From Pseudobutyrivibrio sp. (GTDB lineage Bacteria > Bacillota > Clostridia > Lachnospirales > Lachnospiraceae): a stretch of DNA of 64,000 bases. Numbering within the stretch: position 1 is the first letter of the stretch; each line of letters opens with the position of its first letter. Shown here piece by piece: positions 17,067 through 41,875 of this stretch. The stretch lies in the NCBI GenBank assembly GCA_024697025.1, contig JAILGH010000024.1:1-64000 (forward strand). Direction: 5' to 3'. Under the pieces are notes generated by a model. That model saw only the letters and a program-made list of their open reading frames with translations, had not been told where the DNA came from and made no database searches. Made by a program: the position numbers and the translations under genes.

Positions 17067-18665
17067 TTATACTTTTTCTATTTTCTCTACCAGCCCTTTG
17101 TCGTTGAAGTAAAGCTTAAATCTCTTAACATCGCTTCCAATGTACTTAGCAAAATCATCTTTAGACTTTGCCTTACCATCTTCTACATACTCAAAATCAT
17201 CAGCAAGCTTGTATACATAGTCGTATTCACCAGTTCTTTCTTCTGTCTCTTCTTCACCTGCTGGATTTCCAACACTCTTTCCCTCAAGAGCATTTGAAGC
17301 CTTATCATATGAAGCCTCAACCTGGAGGAAATTATTAGTTGTGTCAACACTATCCATTACAGTAACTTCGCCATTGCCATCAATCGCTAAGTACCTAACT
17401 CTTAGAACCTTGTAGTAAAATCTCCAGCCAATATCGTTTATGTCGTCATGCACATAATTAGGAAGTGCCACATATGTGCTATCCCCTATCCTAGTAATGG
17501 CGTTATCTGGTATATTCTGTTCGAAGACTCCATCCTCAACTTGCTCGTCTACAAAATCCTTTGCGATAACTTTCTTGTCATCAACAGTCTCATAGTACAC
17601 AAGATCACCATGAGGCCTAGCGTCCTTATCGTAACCGCTTAATGTATAACTGCCTGGAGTATAAGTTACAAAGCTTACTTTGCCACTGTCATCAACATAC
17701 ATGTTGCCCTCTTCCATCTTGGAATTGTCATACAGCACACTAAGGCTATTTTCTGCTCCTGCCGTTGCCTCAACACACATTCCTCCATTCCAAAAATTTC
17801 CAGAGCCTTCATAATCAGCAAAACTTACGTAAATCTTATCATTATTTGTAGCAAAATCCTCTACCTGCCAGTTAATAAGGAATTCATCATTAGTTTCTTT
17901 TTCTGGGTTAATAGTTCCAAGGCAAACCTCAGATTTATCAGCAGGATTCAACTCCCAGAAAGTAAAATTAGTACTATCATCTCCATCGCTCTCAGCCTGA
18001 TAGATGTATACCTTGCCGTTAGACGAGCCTAAGTATTCACATCTTTTAGCTGTCTTGCTATATACTTCTTCACCATCCTTATATATATAGGCGTATGATT
18101 CATCTGTATCATAATTAGTATAGCCAGTTACAATGTATCCATTTTCAGCATCAACATTTAACACAGCACCCTGAATATTATCAGCAGGCTTAACCTCTTT
18201 AGTGTCTATGTTTAAAGTATATGTCTTAAAACGATCATCTTCCTTCTTTGTAAGGTAGAACAATCCATCGAGATAATAAATCTCGTGACATCCATCGTCC
18301 TCCGCAATAGTTTCAACCTGCTTGGTCTTTGGATCATAGGCACATATCTCTGACTTCTTGGAATACTCTGTGGTTAGTCCTCCTCTCCACAGGTTAGTGT
18401 ACTCACTGTTTAGGCTTGCATCAGAAAAAGTTTCCGCATCGTATTTTCTAAAATAAACCTTATCATTAACGCTTACGAAAAATGTGCCGTTTCCTTCAAC
18501 GACATCATCCTTATGTAACTCGTTAGTTTTAACATCATCCTGTGCATTTGCTGCAGCTTCCTGAGTCTCATTCGACTCTGTCTTTTGGTTACTAACATCA
18601 GCCTTACCGCATCCTGATACTAGCAATGTCACTGTCAACAATGGTAACAGTCTTTTCATTTTCAT
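17067..18665 (-). CDS. large putative lipoprotein, probable beta-propeller
   Basis: 532 residues with a lipoprotein signal (MKMKRLLPLLTVTLLVSGCG; Cys about 19) and an acidic linker. The remainder shows repeated strand-rich units with recurring tyrosine/aspartate turns such as KVYFRKYDAETF, KIYVSFADYEG and STYVALPNYVHDD, resembling DUF5050-like propeller lipoproteins of Clostridia. An AAGGAGG site precedes the ATG. No transport or enzyme motif seen; perhaps a cell-surface binding protein. Family assignment is tentative. Confidence 0.65.
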   Translation of the reverse strand: MKMKRLLPLLTVTLLVSGCGKADVSNQKTESNETQEAAANAQDDVKTNELHKDDVVEGNGTFFVSVNDKVYFRKYDAETFSDASLNSEYTNLWRGGLTTEYSKKSEICAYDPKTKQVETIAEDDGCHEIYYLDGLFYLTKKEDDRFKTYTLNIDTKEVKPADNIQGAVLNVDAENGYIVTGYTNYDTDESYAYIYKDGEEVYSKTAKRCEYLGSSNGKVYIYQAESDGDDSTNFTFWELNPADKSEVCLGTINPEKETNDEFLINWQVEDFATNNDKIYVSFADYEGSGNFWNGGMCVEATAGAENSLSVLYDNSKMEEGNMYVDDSGKVSFVTYTPGSYTLSGYDKDARPHGDLVYYETVDDKKVIAKDFVDEQVEDGVFEQNIPDNAITRIGDSTYVALPNYVHDDINDIGWRFYYKVLRVRYLAIDGNGEVTVMDSVDTTNNFLQVEASYDKASNALEGKSVGNPAGEEETEERTGEYDYVYKLADDFEYVEDGKAKSKDDFAKYIGSDVKRFKLYFNDKGLVEKIEKV

Positions 18666-18774
18666 ATCAACATCATCCTCCTTATGTTTATATCAATATA
18701 CCATACCCTTTTATACCTGCCACGTCAAATCATTCCTGGCTGTTACTATTCACAGTCTCTTTGATTTTAATTCT

Positions 18775-20481
18775 CTAATGACCCGCTGACTCCGTCCCTA
18801 TGGACCAAATTGAGTCGGCTATATTTAGGGTTGATCGTCTGTGTGACACAAGAACCACTGTCTTTTCTTCCGCCTCCTCCTTAATTGATTTAAGGATAAT
18901 ACCCTCATTTAATGCATCTAAAACACTGGTTGGCTCATCCAACAGCACCAGATTGGCATCGTGTAAAAAAGCTCTGGCAAGGCCAATTCTTTGCTTTTCC
19001 CCTGAGGAAATAGAGTATCCGTCCTCTCCTATAACTGTGTTGTAGCCCTGAGGCAAGGTCTCTATAAAATCATGTAGGCTGGCCTTTTTAGCAGCTGCTG
19101 CAATCTCCTCCATTGTTGCATCAGCCTTTGCAATGGCTATATTTTTGGCGATAGTGTCATGGCTAATCCAAGTATCCTGGGTGACAAATGACTGGTTAGC
19201 TCTCAAAGATTTAGTATTAATTCTCTTTACCAAAACAGCCTTTCCCGCCTGATTACTGTAGTAAATTCCTCCGTCATTCACATCCCAAAATCTCATCAAA
19301 AGCTTAAGCATAGTTGATTTACCAGAACCGCTAGCTCCATGGATTCCAAGGATGTGCCCCTTTTTTACTGCTAGGGTTGTTCCAGTAAGAACAGGGGTCT
19401 CGTCGTAGCCAAATTTCACATCCTTTGCAACCACTAGCACATTCTTTGGACTGTTGTTTAAATCTATATCTGTGCCCTCAATTACTTCATCTACCTTTGG
19501 CTCCTCATCAAGCAAATCTAGGATACGCTTGCCGCTGGCTATAGCTTGATTCAAGTTGCTAGATACTGCTGCAAGAGCGGCCACCGGCCTAAAGGCACTA
19601 ACTGTTGCTACTACAGCTACAACCAGTTGATTAAAGCTTACCTTGTCCTTCGCATATGCGATATACATTACCACAAGTATTATTGCTGCAAATATATTGG
19701 TGGTAACTGTAATGAGCATCCTTTGATTCTTCTCAAATTCCACTAACTCTGATTTGGTATCAGCCAAATTGTCGGAACGTTTAACTATCTCTTTGACAGT
19801 CTTATGACCACTCTGATACTGGATGGTCTCATCAATGCCGTAGATTGTGCTTAGGATAAAGCTGTCCATTTTACCAAAGGCATTTCTATATTCCAAGCTA
19901 GCAGGATAGCTATTTATTTCACTGGAAATAGGAACCATTCCTCCCACTGTGACAAAACCAATTGCAGCCACAACTCCAGCCACTGGAAACAGATATCCAA
20001 TGTAAAGAGACATAACAATTGCCACTATTGCGGACACTGCAACAGGGGCCACAGTGCCTGCAAAGAAAGCTTCAAGCGTCTCAACATCACTGGTTATTAT
20101 AGCGATGAGATTGCCCTTTTCCCTTGTCTCAAGCTTGGCTGGACAAAGTTTACGCAGGGCAGTAAACACCTTCTCCCTTGTAAGGGAAAGAACGTTGATA
20201 GCCACGTAGTTGTTGCAATACTGCTCGCCTAGGCGAAAAACTCCTCGTCCCACTCCAAGTCCCACAAGTATAATTGCAAACATTTTTATTGAAGGTCGCA
20301 CCGATGGATTAAGGAAATTCTCCGCTGTTATAGCTACTGCCTTTGCTCCAATAACCGCCAAAAATATTCCGCATAAACGACTTAACACCCCAAGGATGAC
20401 TCCCGTAGTCATCACACTCTTCAGAGGTCGAACTAACTTTAGCAAACGGGATATGATGGCAAATTCAGATATATTTTCCAT
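18775..20481 (-). CDS. ABC transporter, fused permease-ATPase (CydC-like half)
   Basis: 568 residues: six membrane helices in the first ~300, then an ATPase domain with Walker A GASGSGKS, signature SISSGEKQR and Walker B LVLLDEPTS. The catalytic Glu after Walker B is present. It starts directly after the stop of its partner (TAA then ATG), so the two form a heterodimeric exporter. CydDC-like exporters move thiols or related compounds, but with no cydAB nearby the substrate is open. The final residues (WSIGTESAGH) come from a REP-like repeat at 18777-18806. Confidence 0.85.
   Translation of the reverse strand: MENISEFAIISRLLKLVRPLKSVMTTGVILGVLSRLCGIFLAVIGAKAVAITAENFLNPSVRPSIKMFAIILVGLGVGRGVFRLGEQYCNNYVAINVLSLTREKVFTALRKLCPAKLETREKGNLIAIITSDVETLEAFFAGTVAPVAVSAIVAIVMSLYIGYLFPVAGVVAAIGFVTVGGMVPISSEINSYPASLEYRNAFGKMDSFILSTIYGIDETIQYQSGHKTVKEIVKRSDNLADTKSELVEFEKNQRMLITVTTNIFAAIILVVMYIAYAKDKVSFNQLVVAVVATVSAFRPVAALAAVSSNLNQAIASGKRILDLLDEEPKVDEVIEGTDIDLNNSPKNVLVVAKDVKFGYDETPVLTGTTLAVKKGHILGIHGASGSGKSTMLKLLMRFWDVNDGGIYYSNQAGKAVLVKRINTKSLRANQSFVTQDTWISHDTIAKNIAIAKADATMEEIAAAAKKASLHDFIETLPQGYNTVIGEDGYSISSGEKQRIGLARAFLHDANLVLLDEPTSVLDALNEGIILKSIKEEAEEKTVVLVSHRRSTLNIADSIWSIGTESAGH
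18777..18806. repeat. REP-like repeat arm within the 3' end of an ABC gene
   Basis: Shares GTCCCTATGGACC and the preceding CCGTCCC core with the 6527-6588 copy. It supplies the last nine or so codons and the stop of the ABC gene. Only one arm is present. Confidence 0.65.
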
Positions 20482-22314: not shown

Positions 22315-24354
22315 TTAGGACTCAAGTAAATTATAAGCTCTAAGAATCTCTCCAACAGCACCTGCACTTGCGAAGCATCCTGCCCCCACCGGCTGTTGCC
22401 CCTCTTCATACTTTTCAGAAATCTGACCGATACAGTTGTTTACTAACTGTTGCTCCACTGTACTGATAAGCTCCTTGGCTTCCTCGATAGACTGTGCGCT
22501 TCCAGCACCAACCTTTAAGTAGGCTTCCACAAATGGTCCAATAAAAAATCCGTAAGACTCTAAATCCTCACCACTTTTCAGCGCAATGCCATCATAGAGA
22601 CTGTCCTTAATAACTCTAACAATTGACTTTTCCTTCTCTGGGTCAAGCATGGTAAATGGAAGGCTTACTGCAAATATCTGATTTGGGCGAAGTGTAGAAT
22701 CCTTATACTCATCATCTACAACATCGTACAAGTATCCTCCCTCCTCGTACCAAAACTCTGAGTCGAATGCTTCCTTAACCCAAATAGCAAGCTGACTACA
22801 TCCACCTGCATAGGCAAGATAATTCTCTGGCTTGTTGTGGGTACGTCTTGCTATACCTCTAGAAATCTCTTCCATTGTCATAAGAGCATTGTACCAAAGA
22901 GCATTTATCTCAACAGGCTTTCCGTGGCGAAGTACCACTTCCTTGCCCTTTTCATTCACATCCATCCAGGTGATTGGCTCCTTGCCATCACCGGCTTTCA
23001 TCAAGGCGTCATCGTCCATTCCGATGCCATACTTGGTGCCCTTTCTATAGGCTCCCATTATCTCTTGAAGGCTAGGATAAATGAAATCTTCTACAAACTT
23101 CCATGCCTCATCCGTATTTACGTATTTAAGATAATTGTACACTGCATAAAAATACCAAAGAGCAGTATCTCCATTATTATAGCTAGGACTCTTGTCGTCC
23201 TCTGGATACATATTTGGCAACAGACCATTTTTAATAAGCTTTGAATACGCCAACAGGATAGACTTGGCATCATCAAATCTCTTGGTCTCCAGGCAAACAC
23301 CAGTAAATGCTATCATGGCATCCCTGCCACCATCTGTGTTCCATGGATATCCGGCCACAATAGACTTCTTGCCATTAGAACTTCTATCTACAATAAACTG
23401 ATTTGCTGCCACTGTAAGAACTGTAGCAAGCTCATCATCCTCAGGCAACTCTGCCTTTTCTATCAATTCCGCTATGCGGTTCTTTTCCTTTTCGATTTCG
23501 ATGAAGGCTGTATCCTTCTCGATTGAAGCAACAGTAGCAGGCTCGCTCTTCCTTCTACCTGATGTCTCCTTAACATCTACAGTACAAACAAAAGATGCCT
23601 TAGACACTCCGCCTTCCTCAACCTCCATAACAAAATCGTATGGCTTAAGATGACAATCAAGCCCATCTCTACCATTGTCTATCTCGTATTGAAGCTCCAT
23701 GTTCTCGTCGTAAATATTATTACGCTTTACCATCTCGCAACCAGCACTTACAACAGCAACTCTAACATCCTTGTTGCTCACTGGAGAATAGTAGAAACCT
23801 ATATTGCCGCTCTCCTCATCCCGTACCTCCTTGAAGACCTCCGGTGGCAACTCCCACCTTAGGTCATCTACAGTCATCAAGCTACCGCAAGGTCGATAGT
23901 TAACAAGTGGAGTAATGACAACGCCGGCCGCAGGGCCATTATTTTCTAACGTATATGCGATAACGCACTGGTTCTTTCCCTGAACAAGAGCTATTGTCTT
24001 GGTAAGACGCATGCCTCCCGCCTCGTACTCATAGGTGATAGTTCCATCGTACCTAAATGACTTTAGATGCATATTGCCCTGGTTAAACTCGCTTGTATAT
24101 GGGCCCTTATGCTGTGCCGTAGTCAAATCGTATATACGGCTTCCACAAACTAATCTCTCATTAGTTTTAGAAAACACCAAATATCTCTCAACTGGTGGAT
24201 GCAGGCTAGCAATCAAATAGCCCTGGTGAGTGCGCATGTGAGCACCGACAATGCTACTACCTGCGTAGCCACCAAGGCCATTTGTCAAGAGCCACTCCCT
24301 ATAAAGGCCACTCCTATAGTTAGTCAATTTATCATAAACAAACTCGAACTTCAT
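22315..24354 (-). CDS. glycogen-debranching-type alpha-1,6-glucosidase (GH133-like)
   Basis: 679 residues from the ATG at 24354, with GGAG 9 bp upstream. The N-terminal ~230 residues match the GDE_N_bis beta-sandwich (EWLLTNGLGGYAGSS opening). The C-terminal (alpha/alpha)6 barrel contains GYPWNTDGGRDAMIAF and LWYFYAVYNYL, typical of bacterial/archaeal amylo-alpha-1,6-glucosidase. It would remove single glucose stubs at branch points in glycogen. No signal peptide. It precedes the ABC pair with no clear terminator between, but no other glycogen genes are adjacent. Confidence 0.87.
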   Translation of the reverse strand: MKFEFVYDKLTNYRSGLYREWLLTNGLGGYAGSSIVGAHMRTHQGYLIASLHPPVERYLVFSKTNERLVCGSRIYDLTTAQHKGPYTSEFNQGNMHLKSFRYDGTITYEYEAGGMRLTKTIALVQGKNQCVIAYTLENNGPAAGVVITPLVNYRPCGSLMTVDDLRWELPPEVFKEVRDEESGNIGFYYSPVSNKDVRVAVVSAGCEMVKRNNIYDENMELQYEIDNGRDGLDCHLKPYDFVMEVEEGGVSKASFVCTVDVKETSGRRKSEPATVASIEKDTAFIEIEKEKNRIAELIEKAELPEDDELATVLTVAANQFIVDRSSNGKKSIVAGYPWNTDGGRDAMIAFTGVCLETKRFDDAKSILLAYSKLIKNGLLPNMYPEDDKSPSYNNGDTALWYFYAVYNYLKYVNTDEAWKFVEDFIYPSLQEIMGAYRKGTKYGIGMDDDALMKAGDGKEPITWMDVNEKGKEVVLRHGKPVEINALWYNALMTMEEISRGIARRTHNKPENYLAYAGGCSQLAIWVKEAFDSEFWYEEGGYLYDVVDDEYKDSTLRPNQIFAVSLPFTMLDPEKEKSIVRVIKDSLYDGIALKSGEDLESYGFFIGPFVEAYLKVGAGSAQSIEEAKELISTVEQQLVNNCIGQISEKYEEGQQPVGAGCFASAGAVGEILRAYNLLES

Positions 24355-24422
24355 AAAAATATACTCCAATCTATCCCTTGAAGAATATTTTACCTATTTT
24401 CGCCCCAAATAACTAGTGTTAC

Positions 24423-25054
24423 CGCAAAAAAACCACCACAACTCCCCATAATTTTTGTCCCTCGCCTGGGCCCCAGCCCTTTCCAGTGCGGGGGTTTACG
24501 TCGCATGAATATCTTGTTTTTCTAATGTGCGTTCACCATCCCCTTTTCATGTGTCTTTTACACGTCGGTACAATTTTGCATCGGATGCTTTTTATTGGCG
24601 GACACACATAAACTTAAGCAAAATGGATTTCAGCTTTTATAAATACAACTTGGGTGATTTTGGAATGAGCATAGTAAAATAGCAGCAGATTTTGCACAGT
24701 ATAAGCACGCGAAGCCAGGACGGCTGAGCGAGCCCGAAAATGAGAACGGACTCGATTTAGAGGGCGGTGCTTATACTGACAAAATCCGCTGCGTTATTTT
24801 ACTTGGGCGAATGTAACATGAACCCAAGTGCTATTTATAAAAGTTGAAATCTATTTGAGAACATCAAGTGTCCGCTCTAAAAAGAATCCTTGCAAAATAG
24901 TTCAGTCGAGTACAAAGACACATGGTTGACGCCTCACCAGCACATAAGAAAAACTACAATATTCGCGAAATTGTAAACCCCCGCACTGGAAAGGGCCGGG
25001 GCCCAGGCGGGGGTTGAAAGTCAAAGTATTAAGTTGTGGTGGTTATTTTTTGCG
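24423..25054. repeat. 632-bp palindromic element A with conserved apical segment
   Basis: The two halves are imperfect reverse complements over about 285 bp each, centred near 24738. Matching pairs include CCACCACAACT at the outer ends, GGGCCC-rich basal arms with CCTTTCCAGTGCGGGGG, CATGTGTCTTT, CTTTTATAAATA, AAAATC..GCTG and GTATAAGCAC. The central 64 nt (24706-24769) is not palindromic as a whole but holds two smaller stems and is nearly identical to element B. The right outer arm runs into the last codons of the oxidoreductase gene. This region otherwise holds no gene. It could encode a large structured RNA or be a foldback mobile element; no known family recognised. Confidence 0.85.
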
Positions 25055-27835
25055 TTTGCCCTTGAATGTGACTTTGATAGCCTGCTTCAATCCATTAGGG
25101 AGGACATATTTGAGCTTGTCCTCGGATGGAGTCATCTTTGAGCATTCTGGGTGCTCACGATACAGGTGGATGGCATCAAATTCGCACTTGGTTGTACATA
25201 CGCCACATCCGATACATTTGTTTTCGTCTACTACAGAGGCGCCACACTTCAAGCATCTCGCAGTTTCCTTTTTGATTTGCTCTTCGGTGAATTCTACAGT
25301 CTTGTCACGGAAGCTGAGCTGTCCGTCAACTGTAGTTTTGCTAACACCAGGAATCTGACGTGGACTGTGGTCATAATCGTCTATGCGAATGTTGTCCTTG
25401 TCCAGTTCTATGAAGTCGCGGCGGTTACGTCCGATAGTAAGCGAGCTATGTGGCTGCACAAATCTGTGGATAGAGATTGCGCCTTCACGGCCTGCTGCAA
25501 TTGCATCAATTGCAAACTTAGGGCCTGTGTACATGTCACCACCAACAAAAATATCTGGTTGGTCTGTCTGGTATGTAAGTGGGTCAGCCTTTGGTCCACG
25601 CTCAACGACAACCTTGGAATCCTTGAATAAGTCTCCATATATGCTGCGCTGACCAACCGAGAAGATAACGTGCTTGCAATCAACTGTAATGGTGTCGTTC
25701 TCGTCATACTGTGGTGAGAATTTACCTGACTCATCATAAACGCGAGTACATTTCTTTAAAATGATACCGGATACGGCACCATTTTCATCGGTAAGGACTT
25801 CCTTAGGTCCCCAACCACAGTTGAGCTCTACACCCTCAGCCTCTACGATTTCAATTTCCTCTGGTGATGCAGGCATAATGTCTCTTGTCTCAAGACAGTA
25901 CATAGATACCTTTTGTGTGCCAACTCGGCGAGCAGAACGAGCCACATCAATAGCTACGTTACCACCTCCGATGACTACAAGGTCGCCCTTGATATCGTAC
26001 TTTTCATTTTCAGATACTTCGTGAAGGAAATCCACCGCTGTCTGTGTACCTATAGCATCATCGCCTGGTACTCCTGGCTTATTGCCGCCCTGACAACCGA
26101 TGGCTACATAAAATGCCTTGTAGCCCTGAGCACGAAGCTCATCTAACGTGATATCCTTTCCTACTTCAACTCCGCACTTAATCTCTACGCCAAGAGCCTT
26201 GATGATATCTATCTCGGCGTCGATGACATAGTTTTCAAGTACAAATGATGGAATACCATATCTAAGCATACCACCTGGATATTTACTCTTTTCAAATATA
26301 GTTGGCTTGTATCCCTTCAGTGCAAGATAGTATGCACAGGAAAGACCTGCAGGGCCTGCACCAACAATAGCTACCTTTTCTGTAAACTCACCCTTCTGTG
26401 AAGGAACAATCTTCTTTGGAATAAATCTGGTCTCAGCCTTTAAATCCATCTCGGCTAAGAATCTCTTTACTTCATCTATGGCGATGGCTTCATCAATAGT
26501 TCCACGGGTACACGCTGTCTCGCAACGTCTATTACATACTCGACCACAGATTGCTGGAAGCGGATTGTCCTGCTTGATAAGAGCAAGAGCCTCCTTGTAA
26601 CGTCCCTGAGCTGCCATGCGAAGATATCCCTGAATAGCAATATGTGCAGGACATGCCGTCTTACAAGGTGCTGTACCTGTATCGTAGCAGTTGATTCTGT
26701 TGGTATCGCGATAGTCATCGTTCCAATCATCAACTGTCCATCGTTTTTCTGTAGGAAGAACCTGCTTTGGATACTCTATTTCGCTGCCATCTGCTGTACA
26801 AAGCTTTTGACCAAGCTTAACAGCACCTGCAGGACAATTTTCAACACACTTGCCGCAGGCAACACAATCCTCAGCGGTAACTCTTGCAACATAAGCTGAG
26901 CGAGACATGTTTGGTGTGTTGAAAAGCTGTGAGGTACGAAGAGCGTAACATACATTTACATTACAATTGCAGATAGCAAAAATCTTGTTCTCGCCATCGA
27001 TGTTTGTAATCTGATGTACAAAGCCGTTGTCCTCAGCCTGCTTAAATATATCAAGAGCCTCTTCCTTGGTGATATATACGCCACCCTTGTTAGTCTCTAC
27101 TACATAGTCGGCCATATCGCCAACTGCTATACACCATCCCTCTGGATCGTCTGCACAGCCTTCGTCATAAGTCTTTCTAGATAGACGACAAGAGCATGGC
27201 GACTTGGCATACTTACCCTCGTACTTATCGAGCCAGTAAGAAATCTTCTCTAAATCAATTGCCTGCTGCTCCATTCCTATTGCTTCCTCAACAGGAATGA
27301 CGTGCATTCCAATACCTGCACCACCTGGAGGAACCATGTGAGTCAAGCCCTCAAGCGGAAGGCGGCTCATCCTCTCAAAGAATCGTCCCATCTCTGGGTG
27401 CTCTTCAAGAAAATCTTGATTCATATTAGAAAACTCAGCAGAACCTGGAACAAACATAGGAAGTACCCACTGCTTTTCGTGGGCTTCATTCTCATAGTTC
27501 CACTCCAAAAGACCAGTCCAGCTGGCTTTCTCCAACCTTTCCTCCAAAGTCTTCTCATCTAGGCCTGTAATATCTAAAAGCTGTTCAAATGTCTTTGGCT
27601 TTCTGATACCGCCCATAGAAAGAGCAAGCTCAGCTATCTCCTTGGTAGGAGCAAGATTTGCTACAGCCCAGTATTCTGGGTCATATTTGGTAATTTTTTG
27701 CAGGCCAAGCTTAATCTTGGCTCTGTCAGTAATCACCTTGCCAAGCTTTAGGATTTCTGGACGAAGGTCCTCATCCTTTAAATCTTCTACCCAATCAGGA
27801 TAAAAATCACCAAGTCTATCTGGTCCTATTCCCAT
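25043..27835 (-). CDS. FAD/iron-sulfur NAD(P)-dependent oxidoreductase (GltD/NfnB-like, extended)
   Basis: 930 residues. Residues 1-310 form an N-terminal domain with unusual Cys clusters (SPCSCR about 212; ICNCNVNVC about 288). A 4Fe-4S motif follows at C324/C327/C330/C334, then a GltD-type Cys domain (CKTACPAHI; CGRVCNRRCETAC) at about 390-445. The FAD site is GAGPAG at 492-497, an NAD(P) site is IGGGNVAIDVA, and a C-terminal ferredoxin-like part (CIGCGVCTTKC) lies near the end. This is the GltD/NfnB/DPD-like fold used to pass electrons between NAD(P)H and ferredoxin or a partner. It lies 63 bp downstream of hypB. RBS AAAGGAGG. The partner is unknown. Confidence 0.85.
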   Translation of the reverse strand: MGIGPDRLGDFYPDWVEDLKDEDLRPEILKLGKVITDRAKIKLGLQKITKYDPEYWAVANLAPTKEIAELALSMGGIRKPKTFEQLLDITGLDEKTLEERLEKASWTGLLEWNYENEAHEKQWVLPMFVPGSAEFSNMNQDFLEEHPEMGRFFERMSRLPLEGLTHMVPPGGAGIGMHVIPVEEAIGMEQQAIDLEKISYWLDKYEGKYAKSPCSCRLSRKTYDEGCADDPEGWCIAVGDMADYVVETNKGGVYITKEEALDIFKQAEDNGFVHQITNIDGENKIFAICNCNVNVCYALRTSQLFNTPNMSRSAYVARVTAEDCVACGKCVENCPAGAVKLGQKLCTADGSEIEYPKQVLPTEKRWTVDDWNDDYRDTNRINCYDTGTAPCKTACPAHIAIQGYLRMAAQGRYKEALALIKQDNPLPAICGRVCNRRCETACTRGTIDEAIAIDEVKRFLAEMDLKAETRFIPKKIVPSQKGEFTEKVAIVGAGPAGLSCAYYLALKGYKPTIFEKSKYPGGMLRYGIPSFVLENYVIDAEIDIIKALGVEIKCGVEVGKDITLDELRAQGYKAFYVAIGCQGGNKPGVPGDDAIGTQTAVDFLHEVSENEKYDIKGDLVVIGGGNVAIDVARSARRVGTQKVSMYCLETRDIMPASPEEIEIVEAEGVELNCGWGPKEVLTDENGAVSGIILKKCTRVYDESGKFSPQYDENDTITVDCKHVIFSVGQRSIYGDLFKDSKVVVERGPKADPLTYQTDQPDIFVGGDMYTGPKFAIDAIAAGREGAISIHRFVQPHSSLTIGRNRRDFIELDKDNIRIDDYDHSPRQIPGVSKTTVDGQLSFRDKTVEFTEEQIKKETARCLKCGASVVDENKCIGCGVCTTKCEFDAIHLYREHPECSKMTPSEDKLKYVLPNGLKQAIKVTFKGKRKK

Positions 27836-41247: not shown

Positions 41248-41875
41248 TTCACTATCCTCAGGTTCTCCACAGTGTCCCTGTAATCCCCGGCCCCAAGGCC
41301 CCCTGGTCCCTATGGATAGTGGGGCAATTTTCACGAATATTTTAGCTTTTCAATATGCAAAAAGGGAGCATCCCGCATGTGTCTTGTTGCAGGATGAACT
41401 GTTTTGAGAAAGGTTAATCTGGTGCGGACACCTGTAGCTTTTATATATGAGTTTCCAATACAGAAGTCACCTGGTTTCATGTTACATTCACTAAGTAAAA
41501 TCACAAAGCAGGTTTTGTTAGTATAAACACCGCCCTCTAAATCGAGTCCGTTCTCATTTTCGGGCTCGCTTCGCCGTCCTGGCTCAGCGTGTTTATACTA
41601 TTCAAAACCTGCTTTTATTTTACTAAGTTCATTCCAAAATCAACCAGGTAACTTCTGTTTCGGAAATTCATATGACAATTAATTATTGGTGTGTCCGCGC
41701 TGCAGTTAACCTTTCTCAAAACTGTACAGCCTTGCAAAAGATACATGCTAATAAAAGATGCGACACTTTGCATATATGAAAAGCAAAATATTCTTGTGAA
41801 GCCCCACTATCCATAGGGACCAGGGGGCCTTGGGGCCGGGGACATTCAGTACATTTAGAACCTGTGAATAGTAAC
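41248..41875. repeat. ~628-bp palindromic element B with the same apical segment
   Basis: The halves are imperfect reverse complements centred near 41561. Basal arms contain the perfect pair CCCCGGCCCCAAGGCCCCCT and its complement with TCCCTATGGATAGTGGGGC, flanked by CAGGTTCT/AGAACCTG. Inner pairs include GTTTTGAGAAAGGTTAA, CCTGGTT, CTTAGTAAAAT-type pairs, CAAAACCTGC and AGTATAAACA. The apical 64 nt (41528-41591) matches element A (24769-24706, reverse strand) at 60 positions. The element lies between divergent ilvE and the EAL gene. No coding capacity supported. Confidence 0.85.

Follow-up and report, generated by a model that had tools for sequence, protein, structure and literature searches.

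A multi-copy, probably mobile DNA palindrome of Pseudobutyrivibrio with a TwoAYGGAY motif at its apex

The long palindrome at positions 24423-25054 of the analysed window (the whole stretch of 64,000 nucleotides from a Pseudobutyrivibrio sp. contig) is one copy of a dispersed, multi-copy element. In a recently spread subfamily, copies end in inverted repeats and some are flanked by 7-8 bp duplications, and between genomes filled sites are found opposite empty ones. Many copies have a basal stem of their own with nearly perfect pairing, and the cores of the copies stay alike. These observations probably reflect a non-autonomous, MITE-like mobile palindrome of rumen Pseudobutyrivibrio that carries TwoAYGGAY at its apex and whose arms are rewritten by template switching. 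As a class, a mobile palindrome is ordinary; its behaviour, namely the formation of private, self-paired stems, is unusual.

The features of the two copies in the window that are discussed below (copies A and B) are as follows.

24423-25054, plus strand (the TwoAYGGAY orientation): whole palindromic element, copy A
24423-24443, unstranded: outermost left arm of copy A, pairing with 25032-25054
24459-24499, unstranded: left arm of the GC-rich basal stem specific to copy A; its innermost TTAC already belongs to the shared core
24496-24977, plus strand: core common to other copies in this genome, 80-94% identical over its whole length in four others
24659-24816, plus strand: apex of copy A, a sub-threshold match to RF01731 (TwoAYGGAY)
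24973-25013, unstranded: right arm of the copy-specific basal stem, copy A
25032-25054, unstranded: outermost right arm of copy A, overlapping the 3' end of the minus-strand gene 25043-27835
41251-41875, minus strand: copy B of the element; GTTACTATTCACAG lies at its higher-numbered end
41480-41638, minus strand: RF01731 match of copy B, 49.7 bits, above the gathering score
41862-41875, minus strand: terminal inverted repeat of copy B, exact at one end

A sequence-only reading had described a 632-bp palindrome at this place, and its arms are found where that reading put them. Complementary segments run from the base (24426-24443 with 25032-25049, 18 nt, 94% complementary) through the basal stem (24459-24499 with 24973-25013, 41 nt, 95%) and the core (24621-24655 with 24822-24856, 35 nt, 89%) to the apex (24697-24708 with 24767-24778, 12 nt, 100%). 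The predicted fold of the 632 nt reaches -310.7 kcal/mol, compared with -163.5 (sd 6.2) in 20 shuffled sequences, none of which folds as low (z -23.9), and the opposite strand is equally stable (-310.1, z -22.7). Neither a promoter-like nor a terminator-like site was found in 24300-25200.

Copy A lies between two minus-strand genes, a glycogen-debranching-type gene on the left (22315-24369; PF06202, PF12439) and a gene for an Fe-S/pyridine-nucleotide oxidoreductase on the right (25043-27835; PF07992, PF14691). The last codons and the stop codon of the latter are located inside the outermost right arm; the outer arm of the element is thus the inverse of the gene's own 3' end, which fits copying of the flank, short of proof. 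No terminal repeat or target duplication was recognised for copy A. In 20 relatives, the orthologue of 25043-27835 leads into other sequence and no element is present (330 bases 3' of the gene, compared by eye); because the neighbourhood is rearranged, no empty site can be read for copy A. As a separate observation downstream of this orthologue, five loci (L182, L185, L188, L191, and L198) carry a different palindromic insert of approx. 70-110 bp, seemingly in the loop of the gene's terminator, and a sixth, L196, has a CAACCCGT/ACGGGTTG stem identical to that of L182 and is insert-free (both by eye).

The apex is related to a catalogued motif. A scan of the window against Rfam gave a single match above threshold, TwoAYGGAY (RF01731), at 41480-41638 on the minus strand; it coincides with the second element of the sequence-only reading, and the DNA of copy A is 86% identical to it over 183 bases. 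Under laxer settings, the apex of copy A scores 37.7 bits against a cut-off of 43. In such a scan, copy A and three further copies (on C53, C7, and C69) reach 35.6-40.9 bits, below the cut-off, and the copy on C46 reaches 51; the cut-off is exceeded by 14 of the 15 covariance-model matches in this genome. Because the apices match RF01731, the palindrome can be regarded as a long-armed relative of the catalogued motif, and the proposal of a new long-hairpin RNA is not supported, the apex being already known to Rfam (37.7 bits in copy A, 49.7 bits in copy B). A lone new RNA was likewise dropped, given the Rfam matches and the copy number. A match to an OppA thermometer was rejected as chance (22.2 bits against a cut-off of 290). 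The fit is incomplete with regard to the loops that give the motif its name: copy A has only one exact AYGGAY (24746-24751), short of the motif's two loops, its other loop being AGGACGGC, and at least two exact AYGGAY are found in 25 of 112 copies. The TwoAYGGAY model spans 168 nt, which here form the tip of a mobile, multi-copy palindrome of approx. 600 bp. The family is typed as cis-regulatory in Rfam, whereas the copies described here lie in either orientation to genes; in a table of the discovery paper, it is classed as probably an RNA and not cis-regulatory (PMC2864571). In the passages of the TwoAYGGAY literature considered here, mobility is nowhere mentioned.

The element occurs far more often than the two copies of the sequence-only reading would suggest. 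DNA similarity identifies six places in this genome and the covariance model 15, two of which are in both sets; thus, there are at least 19 copies. Across genomes, the covariance model matches 29 of 61, comprising 27 of 29 of the genus, two of eight other members of the family, and none of 24 others of the order. None of 14 control genomes was matched by the RF01731 covariance model. Complete scans revealed 49 copies in Pseudobutyrivibrio sp. MD2005 (G022), 23 in G002, 20 in G032, and seven in G036. A scan with the core pattern gave 73 stretches, labelled as Pseudobutyrivibrio, Agathobacter ruminis, or Lachnospiraceae. Carriage by phages or plasmids was rejected, since a distant blastn search of the core gave no match in either, and viral contigs held no exact match to the core pattern. 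The set of 112 oriented copies used below comprises 49 from G022, 23 from G002, 17 from this genome (G000), 16 from G032, and seven from G036; it takes in 17 of the 19 places of this genome and 16 of the 20 matches of G032, contig-end, weak, and partial ones being excluded. Judged by titles and the opening lines of abstracts, the literature on Pseudobutyrivibrio palindromes holds nothing on this element, and a literature search for "miniature inverted-repeat" in Butyrivibrio found nothing. In G036, paired RF01731 matches approx. 400 bp apart and in opposite orientation were seen at two places (C47:139778-140356 and C33:53805-54433).

In Pseudobutyrivibrio, a copy consists of a common core of approx. 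460-480 bp followed outwards by the basal stem and a short internal loop. Outside this loop, 24 of the 112 copies have a 14-bp terminal inverted repeat, GTTACYATTCACAG, on both sides (at most three mismatches); all of these belong to G022 or this genome, and the remaining 88 copies tested are without it. Five of the 24 repeat-bearing copies, all from G022, are moreover flanked by direct repeats of 7-8 bp (TAGGGATT, AATAAATT, TCTTACTC, AAAAATCC, and GAGCTGG), whereas duplications of at least 7 bp arise in 1.3% of mismatched flank pairs. No target duplication was seen for copies A and B, and the copies of G002 have no common end. Of the 29 genomes of the genus, 23 contain the terminal repeat in exact form, and none contains the reversed sequence, used as a control. 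Among the 23 repeat-bearing genomes, 13 have recurrent pairs of the repeat spaced by approx. 192-195 bp; the same ends are shared by other palindromic elements, which are 192-194 and 252 bp long. No exact pair in the 29 genomes encloses a transposase, a search that degenerate ends would escape; the only exact pair 1-3 kb apart (1264 bp, in G005) contains no ORF of at least 90 aa.

Several smaller observations concern such ends. Other small palindromic elements ending in GTTACTATTCACAG are located at L283:274-467, L284:280-531, L376:608-799, and L377:533-725; between the elements of L376 and L377 (192-193 bp), a hairpin stem differs by paired changes (ACTTTCC/GGAAAGT versus ACTCCCC/GGGGAGT). 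In the window, a lone exact GTTACTATTCACAG at 18742-18755, next to the 3' end of the gene 18775-20481, is perhaps a remnant; 18500-19300 contains no inverted partner for it. At L135, L148, L149, and L081, terminator-like hairpins lie in both outer flanks in inverse orientation, their outer bases being common and their interiors different.

Comparison of two close species, G012 and G020, shows that the element is present at some orthologous sites and absent from others. Ten G020 loci were compared. For four of them, G012 has a filled orthologous site that matches throughout, and for one a site that matches in part; two have partial or short matches, and the copies at the remaining three (L342, L345, and L346) are absent from the orthologous G012 sites, the flanks of which are 91-97% identical. 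At the three empty sites, 41 bp, 11 bp, and a 5-bp overlap stand in place of 650, 575, and 622 bp, respectively. The empty site of L342 is a plain intrinsic terminator (an inverted repeat followed by six T) exactly at the element's place. At L346, the outer left 20-nt arm, GCCACCATCCACCTAATCCC, is the exact reverse complement of flanking sequence that is also present in the empty site; none of the 19,981 20-mers in a 20-kb stretch at this locus recurs in inverse within 700 bp. Such a trace would be expected if target DNA had been copied by snap-back at insertion. A deletion between GGGGG repeats in G012, instead of an insertion in G020, could give the same pattern, and the direction of the event at L346 is therefore not settled. 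A further search for empty sites (20 stretches of five genomes and all loci) gave one TwoAYGGAY case, which is among the three above; its thresholds missed two of these three, and the search is thus not exhaustive. Taken with the terminal inverted repeats and the five target duplications among 24 copies, the three insertion polymorphisms support the foldback mobile element that the sequence-only reading had named as its alternative. Within one genome (G025), similar sites likewise differ in the presence of a 208-bp palindromic stretch (L363 and L364 compared with L357), with a 5-bp overlap.

An unusual property of the element is the discrepancy between its cores and its basal stems. It was analysed in the 53 copies, among 89 of G000, G002, and G022, that have recognised core ends. 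Within the 60 bases examined, the stems are 24-57 bp long, and their pairing comprises 2252 matched positions as opposed to mismatches (75 transitions, 32 transversions) and 27 gap columns. The stem arms are GC-rich (61, 65, and 70%, compared with 40-42% in the flanks), with an excess of C over G in the left arm (35-48% C, 21-27% G). In G002, the copies L147, L148, and L150 have cores that are 96.8-97.6% identical and stems that are 51-58% identical (42-53% when the stems are shuffled), and each of these stems is nearly perfectly paired, although together they are about as unlike as shuffled ones. The pair L144/L149 is similar (core 98.0%, stem 64%). Related stems (mean 80-85%) are seen in four G022 pairs whose cores exceed 96%. 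Nine young G022 copies, selected for alignable stems, show arm-matched change in 158 of 1095 paired-paired stem cells and in only 32 of 5863 core cells; a further 194 stem cells are changed on one side only, which counts against the preferred reading. The stems do not appear to be captured spacers: a search with the window's own stem gave no match in phages (one stem searched in the collection), and blast of the 53 stems against 332 loci (1.43 Mb) returned only the stem's own place, the same place refetched, or related G022 copies.

At fixed loci, the stems behave differently. In the four fully orthologous G012/G020 pairs, 35 single-arm and two arm-matched changes were counted in 388 columns, and similarity in the stems is roughly that in the flanks. 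Because stems at fixed loci change slowly and one arm at a time, arm-matched change seems to accompany copying and not the passage of time. We infer that stems are rewritten between copies and not continually in place, in a comparison that joins different genomes. On the left side, repeat and core are separated by 58-62 bases in 14 of 18 copies despite the differing stems. The loop types on either side are arranged one way in three of the 18 copies and the other way in three, 12 being unclassed; since the two types change sides, the core appears to have been turned relative to the ends. In the orthologues L332 and L341, an apex patch is 58-81% identical within a core that is otherwise 96-100% identical, which looks like gene conversion from another copy.

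According to the preferred reading, a transposase acting in trans would have moved the copies. Template switching in the basal part of the hairpin, at or near the time of copying, would bring the two arms into agreement and occasionally reverse the core with respect to the ends; once in place, a stem would decay slowly, and ectopic gene conversion may help to hold the cores alike. Such a selfish palindrome would need no host function. Template switching is described as homogenising the arms of inverted repeats and inverting the spacer (PMC8604942) and has been proposed as a creator of RNA stems (PMC8794818). In these accounts, quasipalindromes share with the present element the homogenisation of arms and the inversion of spacers, and they are described for short repeats or for RNA genes at fixed loci. 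Unlike in quasipalindromes, arm change here seems tied to a mobile element and is mostly seen between copies. The GC-rich stem arms, C-rich on one side, are explained by neither neutral decay nor flank copying, and they go beyond what template switching alone explains. Tentatively, transposition might be linked to a fold-back synthesis of DNA by which every copy acquires new self-complementary basal arms, built in part from target DNA, and retains its core; a contribution of target DNA is suggested because the L346 arm is an exact inverted copy of its flank. If such a coupling exists, a mobile element would regularly provide itself with a new stem of its own.

Among known elements, bacterial MITEs are close in appearance: they too are short, gene-free, and dispersed and, as is seen in some copies here, have terminal inverted repeats and target duplications of 7-8 bp. 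Unlike MITEs, the element is palindromic nearly throughout, with private, near-perfect basal stems and a conserved three-way apex, and a partner transposase was not found among exact end matches in the 29 genomes. The REP, BIME, and REPIN palindromes are also high-copy and intergenic (PMC2817692, PMC3116915, PMC3733652); the present element exceeds a single REP (20-40 bp; PMC3733652) approx. 20-fold in length and, unlike REP/BIME, ends in some copies in terminal repeats with target duplications.

It is unlikely, in our judgement, that the copies are instead transcribed regulatory RNAs, i.e., that each is an RNA gene whose GGA loops bind and sequester CsrA and whose long stem protects the RNA. 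This explanation draws on the match of the apex to RF01731, which has been proposed to be a CsrA-binding sRNA (PMC4333381). Moreover, a csrA gene is encoded in this genome (92.4 bits), so CsrA may still be bound, and the copies retain the apex fold despite many Watson-Crick pair changes, with at least two Watson-Crick types at 36 of the 46 consensus pairs. A selected RNA fold, however, should tolerate G-U pairs and not A-C pairs, and the wobbles of the element are strand-symmetric when pairs predicted from both strands are used. In particular, the apices contain 23 G-U and 21 A-C pairs among 4216 Watson-Crick cells (G000 6 and 6, G002 1 and 2, G022 10 and 10, G032 6 and 3), compared with 35 and 0 among 1175 cells in an RNase P control from 20 genomes of the genus (Fisher 2.9e-7, the cells not being independent). 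The stems of the 53 copies show 36 G-U and 39 A-C. Because of this symmetry, there is no sign of selection on an RNA fold, and RNA-level selection was rejected for most copies after a first test and strand-controlled tests, none of which showed asymmetry; most copies look like decaying DNA, in a test that is blind to a few active copies among many dead ones. Also against an RNA gene stand the scarcity of copies with two exact AYGGAY and the lack of a promoter-like site around the window copy. Of 89 copies, 67 could be classed by gene context, and those among tandem genes lie in both orientations (20 sense, 24 antisense), which also speaks against the new long-hairpin RNA considered earlier.

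About as improbable is an explanation in which the palindromes benefit the host by strongly blocking transcription from both sides or by protecting 3' ends, in the manner of oversized REP/BIME, and are kept for that role. Convergent gaps are indeed over-represented among the 67 classed copies (19, compared with 20 of 160 background gaps) and divergent ones are rare (four); in addition, one element has replaced a terminator and another is found just behind one. The same bias would be expected, however, if insertions at promoters were simply weeded out. The window copy has no T-run terminator site, and the presence of copies differs between close species.

Still less likely is the insertion of the core into the loop of existing hairpins, e.g., terminators, with the private stems being old host hairpins. 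It would account for the terminator in the empty site of L342, for the excess in convergent gaps, and for the different small palindrome that seems to sit in the terminator loop of L182, the same stem lacking it in L196 (by eye). It is weakened by the finding that the stem of the filled site occurs in none of the three empty sites, and repeat-bearing copies have their terminal repeat outside the stem. That the stem is a mutational hot spot continually rewritten in place, as the unrelated stems beside near-identical cores in G002 and the arm-matched changes between paralogues in G022 might suggest, is highly improbable, and such hypermutation was rejected on the comparison of G012 and G020 orthologues, where stems differ about as much as flanks and almost always in one arm.

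With the preferred reading of a mobile palindrome, RF01731, catalogued as an RNA, would be recast as the tip of a mobile DNA element, at least in Pseudobutyrivibrio. The strand-symmetry test is simple and may expose other RNA families that are misfiled. Dozens of copies can serve as natural replicates that combine changing paired stems with unchanged neighbouring sequence; they would allow direct study of how long perfect hairpins arise and persist, a general question of RNA evolution (PMC8794818). As a minor observation on the RNase P RNA of the genus, the matches at L325, L326, L327, and L328 extend over 424-466 bases, compared with approx. 345 in most of the genus, and contain structured inserts of 78-120 bases.
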